Assembly: GCF_030687395.1 (NCBI RefSeq)
Contig: NZ_CP117430.1
Span: 6,324,001 to 6,388,000, forward strand
Length of the DNA stretch: 64,000 bases
DNA from: Pseudomonas wuhanensis
GTDB taxonomy: Bacteria > Pseudomonadota > Gammaproteobacteria > Pseudomonadales > Pseudomonadaceae
Direction of reading: 5' to 3'
Shown: in pieces, positions 14,160-48,441 of the stretch
Layout of the letters: each line of letters starts with the position of its first letter
Numbering within the stretch: position 1 is the first letter of the stretch
Translations under genes and position numbers: made by a program
The notes under the pieces: model-generated
Seen by the model: only the letters and a program-made list of their open reading frames with translations
The model's database searches: none
Told to the model about the DNA's origin: nothing

Positions 14160-14330
14160 ATGACCCACTCCAGAAGGGAATTTTTCGCACAGGTAAATCA
14201 GAGTGCCAGCAGGCCAGATCCCTTTGACGTGAGCTTCGAAGATGCCCAGCTCTATGTGGCGGATCTGTTGCGCTGCGCCTCGGTCACGGCGTATCAGTGT
14301 GGTGATCAACTCAAGGGCGCCGATCGGGCA
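14160..14330 (+). pseudogene. Truncated DUF3077/DUF6124-like small gene
   Basis: From an ATG at 14160 the frame encodes a stretch (PDPFDVSFEDAQLYVADLLR, then CASVTAYQCGDQLKG) with the look of the small DUF3077/DUF6124 proteins common in this genus and of the intact relative at 47854. After about residue 56 the reading frame passes into the structured repeat element at 14327 and the family's C-terminal helix is missing. The gene is therefore interpreted as cut off by that element. The family assignment is from pattern recognition only. Confidence 0.5.
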
Positions 14331-14442
14331 TTGGTGTTTTCTGTCTGGCATTTTGGTGGCTGTACGCTGGGCACCCTCGGGCGCACCGGTTTTCCTATTG
14401 ACCGGCCTACTAACCTGCGTACAGCCGCCACCCAACAACCCG
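14327..14442 (+). ncRNA. Degenerate copy of the structured leader element
   Basis: Aligned by eye to the copy at 47595-47760, it keeps the blocks GGTGGCTGTACG, TCGGGCGCACCGG and CCTGCGTACAGCCGCCACCC. The outer arms GGTGGCTGTACGC (14355-14367) and GCGTACAGCCGCC (14417-14429) can form a 13-bp helix with one G-T wobble. The second, competing helix of the other copy is absent here, and no small ORF of the same family follows. The next gene is a methyltransferase. Confidence 0.5.
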
Positions 14443-44409: not shown

Positions 44410-44584
44410 ACATTCCTCATTCGCCGCTCATCGGTCGGCGTGGTTCAAGGATTAAGCGGTGGGGAGGCAACTACGGCAGCATGCGATGATCGACTGCCAC
44501 AGCGTTCCCGGCCACAGAGAAAATTCCGTTTGAAGCGCGCAAAGGGGCAGCGCTCTCGTGCCCTTTGCGCTTGAAGCAATGGAC

Positions 44585-46529: not shown

Positions 46530-46838
46530 CTAGTGATCAGCACTGCCTGATTCGAATAGACGTCCAACGTCCCTTGCGGCATGCAGGACACGCTCAATCT
46601 GAACATCGCCCTCGAAAAGACTATAAAAGATCAAATATCGGCCGTGGGAAATCATTCGCAGCCCTCTGGCATAGTCATCTCGGGGAATACCTTGATTAGG
46701 CTGATCCAGCAGCCGAGCACAGCACACTCGTAGCTCACCAACAAAAGTCCGAGCTCGACCCGGATTGTCACGGGCAATGTAGCGGGCGATTTGCTGCAGA
46801 TCCTCTCGTGCCAGTGCGGAGAAAAACAATTGTCTCAT
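46530..46838 (-). CDS. ParE/RelE-type toxin
   Basis: This 102-residue toxin matches the ParE fold: N-terminal helices FSALAREDLQQIARYIARDN, then beta strands with GLRMISHGRYLIFYSLFEGD and VQIERVLHAARDVGRLF. ParE proteins poison DNA gyrase; RelE relatives cleave mRNA. The sequence lacks the His-rich RelE active site and fits ParE better. It overlaps the antitoxin stop by four bases and is second in the operon, the usual order. Confidence 0.85.
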   Translation of the reverse strand: MRQLFFSALAREDLQQIARYIARDNPGRARTFVGELRVCCARLLDQPNQGIPRDDYARGLRMISHGRYLIFYSLFEGDVQIERVLHAARDVGRLFESGSADH

Positions 46839-47134
46839 GGGCGCTTCTGCTCTGCTTCGACCTCATCAATGAGCGCATCAAGCTCGGCAAACACGGTATC
46901 GGCAGCAATGGCCGGACGTGGGTCATTGCGGCTGGTCGCAATAGCTACACATATTTCTGCGGCTCGTAATCTATCCAGGAGCTGCTGATAAGCGGCGTGC
47001 GGCAAAAGGTAGGCAGCAGGACGATTGTGGTTGAGAACGGCAACTGGCTCTGAGCCTGCTTGCTCAATCACAGTACTTGGGCTGCGTTTCAGCTCGGTAA
47101 TACTGACCGACCGACTCGCAAGTAATTGCTCCAT
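46835..47134 (-). CDS. Phd/YefM-type antitoxin
   Basis: This 99-residue antitoxin has the Phd-type DNA-binding N-terminus SVSITELKRSPSTVIEQAGS and EPVAVLNHNRPAAYLLPHAA. A toxin-binding C-terminal tail reads DTVFAELDALIDEVEAEQKR. It neutralises the ParE-like toxin encoded next and represses its own promoter. A 7-bp inverted repeat 11 bp upstream of the ATG is the likely operator. A decayed duplicate of this gene lies at 48211-48441. Confidence 0.88.
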   Translation of the reverse strand: MEQLLASRSVSITELKRSPSTVIEQAGSEPVAVLNHNRPAAYLLPHAAYQQLLDRLRAAEICVAIATSRNDPRPAIAADTVFAELDALIDEVEAEQKRP

Positions 47135-47166: not shown

Positions 47167-47407
47167 ATAGTGCTCGATTTTCCGAACAACGGTCAACGTG
47201 CAACTGACCGGGGCCATCTGCCCCACAAAAAACCATCGAAACGGGTTTCCTTTGCTGTCGTTAAATCGAGATTCGCTGGTCAAATGACCGGCAAATGAGC
47301 GGCACGAACAAAGGCGGCTGAAACCGCACCTTGGCCAGTTGCTGTCTGCTGCCAGCGCCTTGTTCAATCAAATGACCGTCAAATGACGATAATACCCAGC
47401 CGGGTAC

Positions 47408-47503
47408 TTAGCGAACTTTGCGATTAGCCTTGGGATCATCGACGTCATCTTCTTCCGACCGATTCAGCAGAAAATCCTTACGACTTTCGACGGTTGCAGG
47501 AGA
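47408..47503 (-). pseudogene. Fragment related to the acidic protein gene at 48426
   Basis: Leftward translation gives ATVESRKDFLLNRSEEDDVD ending at a TAA at 47408. It aligns with AVTESRKEFLLAKQAEEGLE of the intact 89-residue protein. The first half of the gene is missing, and no start or ribosome binding site is visible. It is therefore a remnant of a second copy. Confidence 0.55.
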
Positions 47504-47594
47504 TCAGCCTGCACGATACCCTTCCGCCGTCGCTGCCAATTCAGCGACCGGGCTTGGTAACCCGAGAGTTAAGCGCAACAGCGCCCCCATTGAG

Positions 47595-47760
47595 AATTGC
47601 AGGCGTTTGTTTACGCCCGCAATTTTGAGTTATGGCGGCTGTACGTGGGACGTCTTCGGGCGTGCCGGATTCCTTGACTCCCGGTTTACCAACCTGCGCA
47701 CAGCTGCCACCCATTCGCTTGGTAACGAAAAAGTGGCAGTTCCTCGTCAAGGAGCTAGAC
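47595..47760 (+). ncRNA. Candidate structured leader RNA with competing helices
   Basis: Several helices can be drawn by eye. P0: AATTGCaGGCGT (47595-47606) pairs with ACGCCcGCAATT (47613-47624). P1: GGCGGCTGT (47634-47642) pairs with ACAGCTGCC (47700-47708). P2: AGCTGCCAC (47702-47710) pairs with GTGGCAGTT (47733-47741), enclosing a TTCG/CGAA stem. P1 and P2 share 47702-47708 and exclude each other. A small stem TCCT/AGGA (47741-47753) would mask the ribosome binding site of the 31-codon ORF that begins at 47762. A related but degenerate copy lies at 14327. Confidence 0.55.
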
Positions 47761-47761
47761 C

Positions 47762-47857
47762 ATGCGCAATGTAAATCCGTACGAAATTAGGCTTATCCCT
47801 CACCCCGACTTCGAATCGCGCCCCCACCGCACCTCCGTCATTGGAGGTGGCAAATGA
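47762..47857 (+). CDS. 31-residue ORF between the structured leader and the DUF3077-like gene
   Basis: The ATG is preceded by AAGGAG with 7-nt spacing. The product reads MRNVNPYEIRLIPHPDFESR and continues PHRTSVIGGGK. Its TGA overlaps the next ATG (ATGA), and its last codons contain GGAGGTGG, the ribosome binding site of the downstream gene. This suggests that its translation controls the next ORF. No family was recognised. Confidence 0.5.
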   Translation: MRNVNPYEIRLIPHPDFESRPHRTSVIGGGK

Positions 47858-48147
47858 CTGAATACTCAGAAGCAAAAACCATCGGCTTCACGCCCTGCCT
47901 CTACAGTGCAGACGATCCGCTGTTTCATGTCAGCGCTGGGGTGCCTATTAGTAAAGCATTGGCACAGGCGTCCGACCTGTTGTTCCTGGCCAAGTCGTTT
48001 GCTGAGGATGCAGCCTATGCAAAAGACACCGACCGCTATGCCTGGGCCGCGCACTATTTGACGGCGATGGGTAAAGCGGTGGTTGATGATGTGGTGAAAG
48101 TTCTGACGCAACCTCCGCAGACGGCGACGCCACAAACCGTAAAATAG
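47854..48147 (+). CDS. DUF3077-like small protein
   Basis: This 97-residue protein is of a family frequent and multicopy in fluorescens-group Pseudomonas, with no known function. It has PLFHVSAGVPISKALAQASD at about 25-44, then a helical part with YAWAAHYLTAMGKAVVDDVV. There is no signal peptide or membrane segment. The predicted all-helical C-terminal two thirds recall small regulatory or toxin-neutralising proteins, but that is speculation. It starts by ATGA overlap with a 31-codon ORF behind a structured leader. A hairpin follows 22 bases after its stop. Confidence 0.75.
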   Translation: MTEYSEAKTIGFTPCLYSADDPLFHVSAGVPISKALAQASDLLFLAKSFAEDAAYAKDTDRYAWAAHYLTAMGKAVVDDVVKVLTQPPQTATPQTVK

Positions 48148-48169
48148 CGGCAACTCACCCTTGAAATGC

Positions 48170-48187
48170 GCCCCGATTTTTCGGGGC
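48170..48187. terminator. Hairpin after the DUF3077-like gene
   Basis: GCCCCGA and TCGGGGC pair around TTTT. A short T-run occurs 8 bases later rather than directly after the stem, so termination efficiency is uncertain. It could serve both convergent genes. Confidence 0.55.
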
Positions 48188-48210
48188 CTGCAATTTTTGG
48201 GTGAGTGTTT

Positions 48211-48441
48211 TCATCGGCGGTTACGCTCCGCTTCAACCTCATCAATGAGTGCATCAAGCTCGGCAAATAGGATTTCGGCAGGAATAGCCGGACGTGGGTC
48301 ATTACGGCTGACGCCTATAGACTCACGTATTTCTGCGACTCGTTGCTGATAAGCCGCGTGCGGCAAGGGGTGAGCAACAGGATGGTTGTGGTTGAGAACG
48401 GCAACGGGCCGCCAGAGCGTTTTCTTCATTCTGTCGTCCAA
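48211..48441 (-). pseudogene. Decayed duplicate of the antitoxin gene
   Basis: The frame contains RPVAVLNHNHPVAHPLPHAA and a stretch ending PAEILFAELDALIDEVEAER, nearly identical in pattern to the intact antitoxin at 46835. The N-terminal DNA-binding part is gone, a stretch near the middle (LLDRLRA) is deleted, and no toxin gene follows. The first possible ATG (48429) overlaps the stop of the acidic-protein gene. Either a pseudogene or a retained antitoxin tail. Confidence 0.6.

Follow-up and report, generated by a model that had tools for sequence, protein, structure and literature searches.

Identity of the leader RNA

What is the RNA that precedes the small DUF3077 gene at position 47854 of our window (the whole stretch of 64,000 nucleotides of the Pseudomonas wuhanensis chromosome that was analysed), and how does it act on this gene? 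The first-pass annotation, made from the letters alone, described a leader with two mutually exclusive helices in front of a small coupled ORF, and proposed a widespread, undescribed module working as a riboswitch, thermosensor or translational switch. The Rfam search that it suggested matched two existing families above their gathering scores at this locus. The leader is a C4 antisense RNA (RF01695, gathering score of 45), and it is preceded by a c4-a1b1 element (RF03163, gathering score of 46.7). It is a member of the known kind of C4 phage immunity RNAs, and it cannot be called undescribed since these two families cover it; both motifs are listed in the available text of Weinberg 2010 (PMC2864571). 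There was no match to isrK above the gathering score of Rfam in the window, and a promoter scan found no sigma-70-like promoter in 47200-48300. The elements of the locus are the following.

47516..47568, + strand: c4-a1b1 element RF03163, upstream C4 target (Rfam, 57.3 bits)
47554..47560, + strand: site a1, TTGGTAA, displayed by a hairpin loop and matching loop a' of C4 (sequence)
47566..47573, + strand: site b1, GAGTTAAG, can pair with 47673-47680 if one G-U is allowed (sequence)
47628..47714, + strand: C4 antisense RNA, span of the RF01695 model (Rfam, 80.6 bits; the fold covaries)
47669..47680, + strand: C4 loop b', ATTCCTTGACTC (sequence)
47671..47678, + strand: TCCTTGAC within loop b', pairs with the Shine-Dalgarno site b2 (sequence)
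47686..47692, + strand: C4 loop a', TTACCAA, the complement of both a1 and a2 (sequence)
47702..47741, + strand: alternative stem P2, C4 3' arm 47702-47710 with 47733-47741, bearing the a2 hairpin
47719..47725, + strand: site a2, TTGGTAA, in a hairpin loop with stem 47714-47717/47726-47729
47746..47753, + strand: site b2, GTCAAGGA, overlapping the Shine-Dalgarno AAGGAG at 47749-47754 (sequence)
47762..47857, + strand: leader ORF of 31 codons in an icd-like position, its stop and the next start forming ATGA
47830..47849, + strand: hairpin predicted within the leader ORF, covering the DUF3077 Shine-Dalgarno (GGAGG, 47843-47847)
47854..48147, + strand: DUF3077 protein, 97 aa (Pfam PF11275, E 6.2e-30)

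The mature C4 is likely to extend from about 47634 to 47710, with GG at its start: if its ends are set by analogy with phage P1, at the equivalent GG and where the closing stem finishes, the RNA has 77 nt. The GG at 47634-47635 fits the processing motif quoted in the available text of PMC5320573, and the C4 precursor would be processed by RNase P.

The immI locus of phage P1 (c4-icd-ant1) offers the closest comparison. In its record (AF234172), the annotated features follow one another as a1, b1, C4 (77 nt), a2, b2, icd, ant1, and the last two share four bases. The P1 sequence also contains an alternative stem (duplex of -17.4 kcal/mol) and a predicted hairpin before the ant1 start. The window module shares with it the RNA family, the three-stem fold, the order of the sites, the 77-nt RNA, the ATGA overlap of the small ORF, the hairpin before the second gene, and the alternative stem. 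It differs from immI of P1 and P7, as judged from the P1 record, in that the putatively controlled gene is DUF3077 and not the anti-repressor ant1, and in that it is chromosomal, with dozens of copies bearing different seeds. According to the available text of PMC5320573, C4 of phage P1 hides ribosome sites, and a difference of 4 nt between the C4 of P1 and P7 is enough to prevent cross-reaction. The accessible part of PMC8198154 describes the role of C4 in repressing ant, and both sources cite Citron and Schuster 1990.

Two mutually exclusive helices

Both helices seen in the first pass are present, each with 9 pairs including one G-T pair. P1 (47634-47642 with 47700-47708) is the outer part of the C4 closing stem, and P2 links the C4 3' arm to the segment between a2 and b2. 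They are mutually exclusive, as had been claimed, because both use 47702-47708, and the second small stem reported within P2 is the hairpin that displays a2. The TCCT/AGGA stem proposed over the Shine-Dalgarno would be just 4 pairs long.

The covariation check proposed with the annotation was run on the paralogues of the genome, i.e. on 46 of its 48 C4 copies (leaving out the orphan L083 and L048, which is split by an insertion sequence), and it backs P1 strongly and P2 modestly. In the C4 fold, 95.1% of the cells are paired, 15 pairs changed on both sides, and the covariation score is 0.407; none of 500 shuffles reaches any of the five measures, and at most 41.3% of the cells are paired when the fold is slid. 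Covariation upholds the closing stem, the second hairpin and the seed hairpin. For P2, 83.1% of the cells are paired versus a shuffled mean of 80.7 (3/500 shuffles reach this value), and the covariation score is 0.280 versus 0.228 (reached by 0/500). The number of P2 pairs changed on both sides shows no excess over shuffles (276/500 reach it), and 66.0% of the cells are still paired after sliding by 3 columns. The duplex of P2 with its own arm has -13.47 kcal/mol, versus -12.53 for permuted arms, and 35 of 10000 permutations are as good. P2 is supported as a conserved helix with modest covariation, much more weakly than P1. Sites a1 and a2 lie within stems of at least 4 pairs in, respectively, 42 and 40 of the 45 modules tested, versus fractions of 0.42 and 0.45 with shuffled flanks.

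Forcing either fold on the window transcript gave -54.3 kcal/mol for P1 and -50.5 kcal/mol for P2. The P1-forced fold is better by 3.8 kcal/mol, and therefore P2 would need help, which could come for example from C4 or from ribosomes acting on the rest of the leader. Two conserved and mutually exclusive helices with forced energies just 3.8 kcal/mol apart are compatible with a ligand-sensing riboswitch or a thermosensor, in which P1 and P2 would exchange in cis. However, the variable loops track distant target sites (see below) and form no conserved pocket, no described riboswitch family of Rfam reaches its gathering score in the window, and the C4 family accounts for the elements that we observe. 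Such a sensor is very improbable. A more fitting view of the leader is that of a precursor from which an antisense RNA acting in trans would be made, with two seeds that match sites before it and on the ribosome site behind it.

Most C4 loops match their own targets

In the window copy, loop a' is complementary to a1 and a2, and loop b' is complementary to b2, on the ribosome site, and to b1 with one G-U pair, the exact Watson-Crick run with b1 being just 4 nt. We compared the loops of all 48 C4 of the genome with the sites of their own and of the other modules. The cognate test is passed when the two seeds form, in order, Watson-Crick runs of at least 6 pairs for a' and at least 7 pairs for b'; these thresholds were chosen after seeing the run data, and we report three of them. 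The non-cognate set comprises the upstream and downstream sites of every other module, and in addition eight sites from loci that lack C4 or are split by an insertion sequence (IS). With b' runs of at least 7, the test is passed by 38/48 own downstream sites, 29/48 own upstream sites, and 26/4896 non-cognate pairs; in one of these 26, the partners are the two halves of a module split by an IS. These numbers become 42/48, 36/48 and 74/4896 with runs of at least 6, and 29/48, 18/48 and 9/4896 with runs of at least 8. Among downstream sites alone, 16 of 2256 non-cognate pairs pass. In seven other genomes, 38/40 cognate pairs pass versus 5/266 non-cognate pairs of the same genome. The mean Watson-Crick runs with downstream sites are 7.60 (own) and 4.81 (other) for b', and 6.96 and 4.46 for a'; with upstream sites they are 6.85 and 4.75 for b', and 6.92 and 4.79 for a'. 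All four own-target means exceed the largest of 10000 permutations. For most of the 48 C4, complementarity is far greater to the own target than to those of other copies.

Raw duplex energy was also considered as a test of specificity, but it is noisy and ordered runs were used instead. It ranks the own target first in 14/48 cases for b' downstream, 5/48 for b' upstream, 1/48 for a' downstream, 13/48 for a' upstream, and 30/48 when the four are summed.

Insulation of the C4 within the chromosome is partial: 27 of the 48 pass for their own downstream target and no other downstream target, and 10 fail the test for their own downstream target. The window copy itself passes both ways with a module of DUF3077 (L074, genome position 5283607) and with one of DUF6124 (L061, genome position 3081610). 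It may therefore share control with L074 and L061, and sharing with one or two copies overall is probable.

The leader ORF and the DUF3077 protein

As described in the first pass, the 31-codon leader ORF (47762-47857) overlaps the 97-codon ORF at 47854 by ATGA, the latter is DUF3077-like (PF11275, E 6.2e-30), and the small ORF carries the ribosome site of this gene, GGAGG at 47843-47847. The hairpin over the site has a predicted energy of -13.6 kcal/mol (without shuffle control). We folded 13 further DUF3077 loci from other records, chosen for a visible leader ORF, which was picked heuristically as the first start with a Shine-Dalgarno-like stretch. In 11 of these 13 chosen loci the ORF stops at the ATGA position, as in the window, and in the other two it ends at +8 and -2. 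All 13 have a predicted hairpin over the Shine-Dalgarno region, with -8.4 to -17.7 kcal/mol (by eye and without shuffle control). The leader ORFs at the chosen loci have 17 to 38 codons and form several unlike groups, as would be expected if the ORF served for coupling and its peptide were not conserved. The small-ORF arrangement is present at the window locus and is not a general trait. Most modules of the genome lack a leader ORF: three DUF3077 genes (L045, L063, and L074) have none and start directly behind b2, as do most DUF6124 genes of the genome. At many loci the ORF that comes first after C4 has a similar beginning, in which a few residues precede Asn-Pro or a pair resembling it (e.g. 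MRNVNP, MHALNP, MFKVTPNP, and MVNANP in icd of phage P1); this might reflect common origin or a constraint on the RNA.

The AlphaFold2 model of DUF3077 is a two-helix hairpin (mean pLDDT 81.7), and its comparison with known folds gave no informative match. At a threshold of E 0.1, none of four proteins matched PADLOC. Profile comparisons among DUF3077, DUF6124 and other small C4-controlled proteins revealed no significant link, with E values of 0.0067 (at 5.7% probability), 0.067, and 0.17. The sole hint of a common origin of DUF3077 and DUF6124 is the locus at 4177576-4177770, where both Pfam models match.

The locus could be likened to a type I toxin-antitoxin pair, in which C4 would be the RNA antitoxin and either DUF3077 or the leader peptide a growth inhibitor. 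In line with this idea, the antisense RNA is self-matching, the paralogues are multicopy, the leader ORF is coupled and in an icd-like position (Icd of phage P1 is annotated as an inhibitor of cell division), and toxin-antitoxin genes lie nearby in the window and at two inspected viral-contig loci. In type I systems, the antisense RNA is encoded opposite or apart from the toxin leader, whereas C4 lies on the same strand as its target, in the same leader, and not opposite to it. Furthermore, the leader peptides are of several unlike groups and of varying length (17 to 38 codons), and neither the helical hairpin of the DUF3077 model nor the PADLOC search produced an informative match. We regard this reading as quite unlikely and retain that of a C4 RNA that silences the gene behind it.

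Copy number, cargo and distribution

On its single contig of 6.59 Mb, the genome carries 48 matches to C4, of which 46 are over the cut-off, and 47 a1b1 matches, of which 23 are over the cut-off; a1b1 is found at most 400 nt upstream of 40 of the 48 C4. It also has 39 DUF6124 and 8 DUF3077 matches, with one locus in both lists. The suggestion of a widespread multicopy module is borne out. Of the 48 C4, 38 have a DUF6124 or DUF3077 match at most 1500 nt downstream (37 at a distance of 72-245 nt and one at 501 nt). Two C4, at 248501 and 5417431, precede Bro-N proteins matching phage anti-repressor families, the Bro-N gene at the second position coming after a small ORF. Six others precede other small proteins, with no Pfam family over the cut-off among the families scanned. 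Of the remaining two, one lies before a further small ORF and a 101-aa protein, and the other is an orphan.

At least 110 of 119 sampled genomes of the genus, own genome included, have C4 (in this survey at most 33 candidates per genome were scored). In a sample of 40 genomes of the genus, C4 was found in 36 and DUF6124 in 32 (696 and 490 matches, respectively), and 17 genomes have at least 20 C4. The counts of the two are correlated (Spearman 0.86, uncorrected for relatedness), and they are unequal in some genomes, such as G009 with 38 C4 and 2 DUF6124. Genome G006 has 41 C4 and 15 DUF6124; both genomes are below most C4-rich genomes in DUF6124, and several of their copies that were read precede other small proteins. 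At the level of the order, with 194 genomes, DUF6124 was found in two, both of this genus and one of them the own genome, and C4 in 29 of 194 genomes and 17 of 96 genera. Among loci of DUF3077 relatives in named Pseudomonas contigs, 50 of 58 have C4 at most 450 nt upstream. The C4 of fetched loci were identified with the covariance model; a regular-expression search found just part of them.

Some genes and modules depart from this organization. The DUF6124 genes at genome positions 3975656, 5658374, and 5776950 (L087, L089, and L095) have an a1b1 match and no C4; among them, the gene at 5776950 may be targeted in trans by the C4 next to it, at 5775806. Two DUF3077 genes also lack C4: that at 6266809 (L091) keeps an apparent b2 region, leader ORF, and Shine-Dalgarno hairpin, and that at 5458449 (L092) just the hairpin (by eye). 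Two modules, L090 (2428334/2430144) and L048/L093 (1331239/1332771), seem to be interrupted within C4 by insertion sequences of one kind, with a shared stretch that has a transposase-like start (by eye). Near a C4-less gene matching both DUF6124 and DUF3077 (L088), positions 1263-1410 of L088 match the PrrF RNA (RF00444, 160.8 bits).

Neighbourhood of the locus and mobile relatives

The window has a second C4 at 14349-14435 (Rfam, 69.9 bits). It is an orphan (14200-14435), with no target behind it, and comes directly after a broken DUF6124-like coding stretch that resembles, by eye, the gene at genome position 4177585. Its loop b' has a 10-pair match to the ribosome-site region of the module at 3780829, the match of a' being 5 pairs. 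A ParE/Phd toxin-antitoxin pair (46530-47134, - strand) adjoins the DUF3077 module, and a truncated second copy of the antitoxin lies at 48211-48441 (- strand), the repeats being 82-86% identical; since antitoxin copies flank both sides, the C4-DUF3077 module is located between direct repeats. A gabT RNA motif (RF01738, 59.6 bits) is found at 44455-44516 (- strand); the gene in front of it resembles, by eye, that of an aldehyde dehydrogenase.

Relatives of the module occur in mobile elements. The C4 at genome position 5444022 is in a tRNA-integrase-AlpA element, where it is followed by a 52-codon ORF, a 94-aa protein, DUF3077, and a DUF927 protein. Three Pseudomonas phage records (phiAH14b, vB_Pae_U10, and Phipami28) have C4 modules, followed in two of them by primase or helicase genes, and the isrK model of Rfam matches the a1b1 region of two Pseudomonas phage records. 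We found DUF3077 at 37 viral-contig loci, 30 of which have C4; of two that were inspected, one is near Ogr/Delta and HicB genes and the other near Fic and integrase genes. PHROG 36471 matches DUF3077 (E 2e-11). A tblastn search with the window DUF3077 gave no match at E 0.01 in phage records and one match in plasmid records. These modules are likely to originate from phages or satellites.

Chromosomal C4 might then serve in superinfection immunity, silencing incoming phages or satellites of the same specificity, as C4 does in P1 and P7. The modules in the three phage records, the presence of DUF3077 in the integrase-AlpA-C4-DUF927 element and at the viral-contig loci (30 of 37 with C4), and the two copies before Bro-N anti-repressor-like genes argue for such a role. 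However, some of the "viral" contigs may be chromosomal flanks, and many copies look solo (the wider neighbourhood was read for the window and for L160). We see superinfection immunity as possible, if somewhat unlikely, and keep silencing of the module's own gene as the preferred reading.

Evolution of specificities

The b' seed diverges much more than the rest of the module. In 31 within-genome pairs whose proteins are at least 75% identical, the mean identity is 0.876 for both protein and gene, 0.764 for the C4 scaffold, 0.723 for a' and 0.537 for b'; for comparison, the b' identity is 0.524 over all pairs and drops to 0.493 when the loops are shuffled. The most similar paralogues have proteins 98% identical and b' loops 50% identical. 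Across 163 modules and with the same cut-off on protein identity, b' loops are 90% identical in 0/40 within-genome pairs versus 88/576 between-genome pairs (Fisher p 0.0036, for non-independent pairs pooling orthologues and paralogues), or 86/574 of the latter without pairs of named with unnamed records. Therefore, specificities differ inside a genome and some of them recur between genomes; some loops are identical between genomes though the proteins differ. This pattern fits selection for insulation, and drift followed by sorting could also have produced it.

One may wonder if the copies are just old phage remnants, non-functional and drifting. Insertion sequences seem to interrupt two of them, one has lost its target and adjoins a broken DUF6124-like stretch, some DUF genes lack C4, and 10 of 48 C4 fail the own-target test. 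Yet, the loops have diverged to near-random identity and 38 of 48 still keep the complementarity to their own site, cognate pairing is much better than non-cognate pairing, and certain loops are the same in different genomes despite differing proteins. There is very little chance that decay explains the repertoire as a whole, and we return to the reading of working antisense switches.

Proposed mechanism and significance

It is very likely that the module is a C4-type antisense RNA that silences its own DUF3077 gene unless C4 runs short. One transcript would carry, in this order, a1/b1, the C4 RNA and a2/b2, with b2 on the ribosome site of the leader ORF. By analogy with phage P1, C4 would be cut out of the transcript and act in trans on further copies, its loop a' pairing with a2 and its loop b' with b2, which would hide the Shine-Dalgarno. 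C4 probably silences the gene behind it in this way, by pairing with its ribosome site. DUF3077 would be off because the leader ORF is untranslated and ribosomes leave the hairpin over the DUF3077 Shine-Dalgarno closed. The transcript would take one of two fates, because P2 and the C4 closing stem compete for one strand: it may be a donor of C4 or an unprocessed mRNA that presents a2. The module would be self-silencing by default, and released once C4 drops below its target. Since the seed pairs differ among dozens of modules, many copies should be regulated separately. Of the initial interpretation, the exclusive helices, the coupling at this locus, the multiplicity of copies and the (putative) translational switch all carry over; its undescribed nature and the riboswitch or thermosensor do not.

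Several known systems resemble this one. As reported in the available text of PMC5320573, Acinetobacter baumannii has many C4-like Group 1 sRNAs with variable seed loops, which are expressed and apparently processed starting at GG. They are like the Pseudomonas C4 in their number per genome and their variable seeds. The portion of that text available leaves their targets open (phage or bacterial mRNA), whereas in this genome these are mostly cis cognate sites before a named gene family. The CI RNA of P4 (seqA/seqC) and IsrK/STnc1160 of Salmonella Gifsy-1 are also RNAs processed from a leader, with target sites before and after, and CI differs in acting via transcription termination (both in the available text of PMC4825925). 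In the open-access literature searched, we found no title or beginning of an abstract linking C4 to DUF3077 or DUF6124, and the sole mention of these families concerns a pseudogene. The part that seems unreported is the scale, with 48 C4 RNAs on one chromosome.

We tentatively propose, while thinking it less probable than not, that Pseudomonas made of a phage immunity locus a largely insulated repertoire of antisense-RNA switches. A chromosome would hold as many as about 48 of them, and every switch would keep one small helical protein silent. Specificities would be born at duplication and kept across species like immunity types, and the proteins may act against, or compete with, phages or satellites with the same module. 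Our results provide a regulatory setting for two uncharacterised families, DUF3077 and DUF6124, and give the C4 RNAs, which have become numerous on this bacterial chromosome, targets in cis. They also bring together, in one cell, dozens of natural antisense RNAs with matching targets for studying how specificities split after duplication, a question for which the set is useful because up to three separate sites (b', b1, and b2) must change together.
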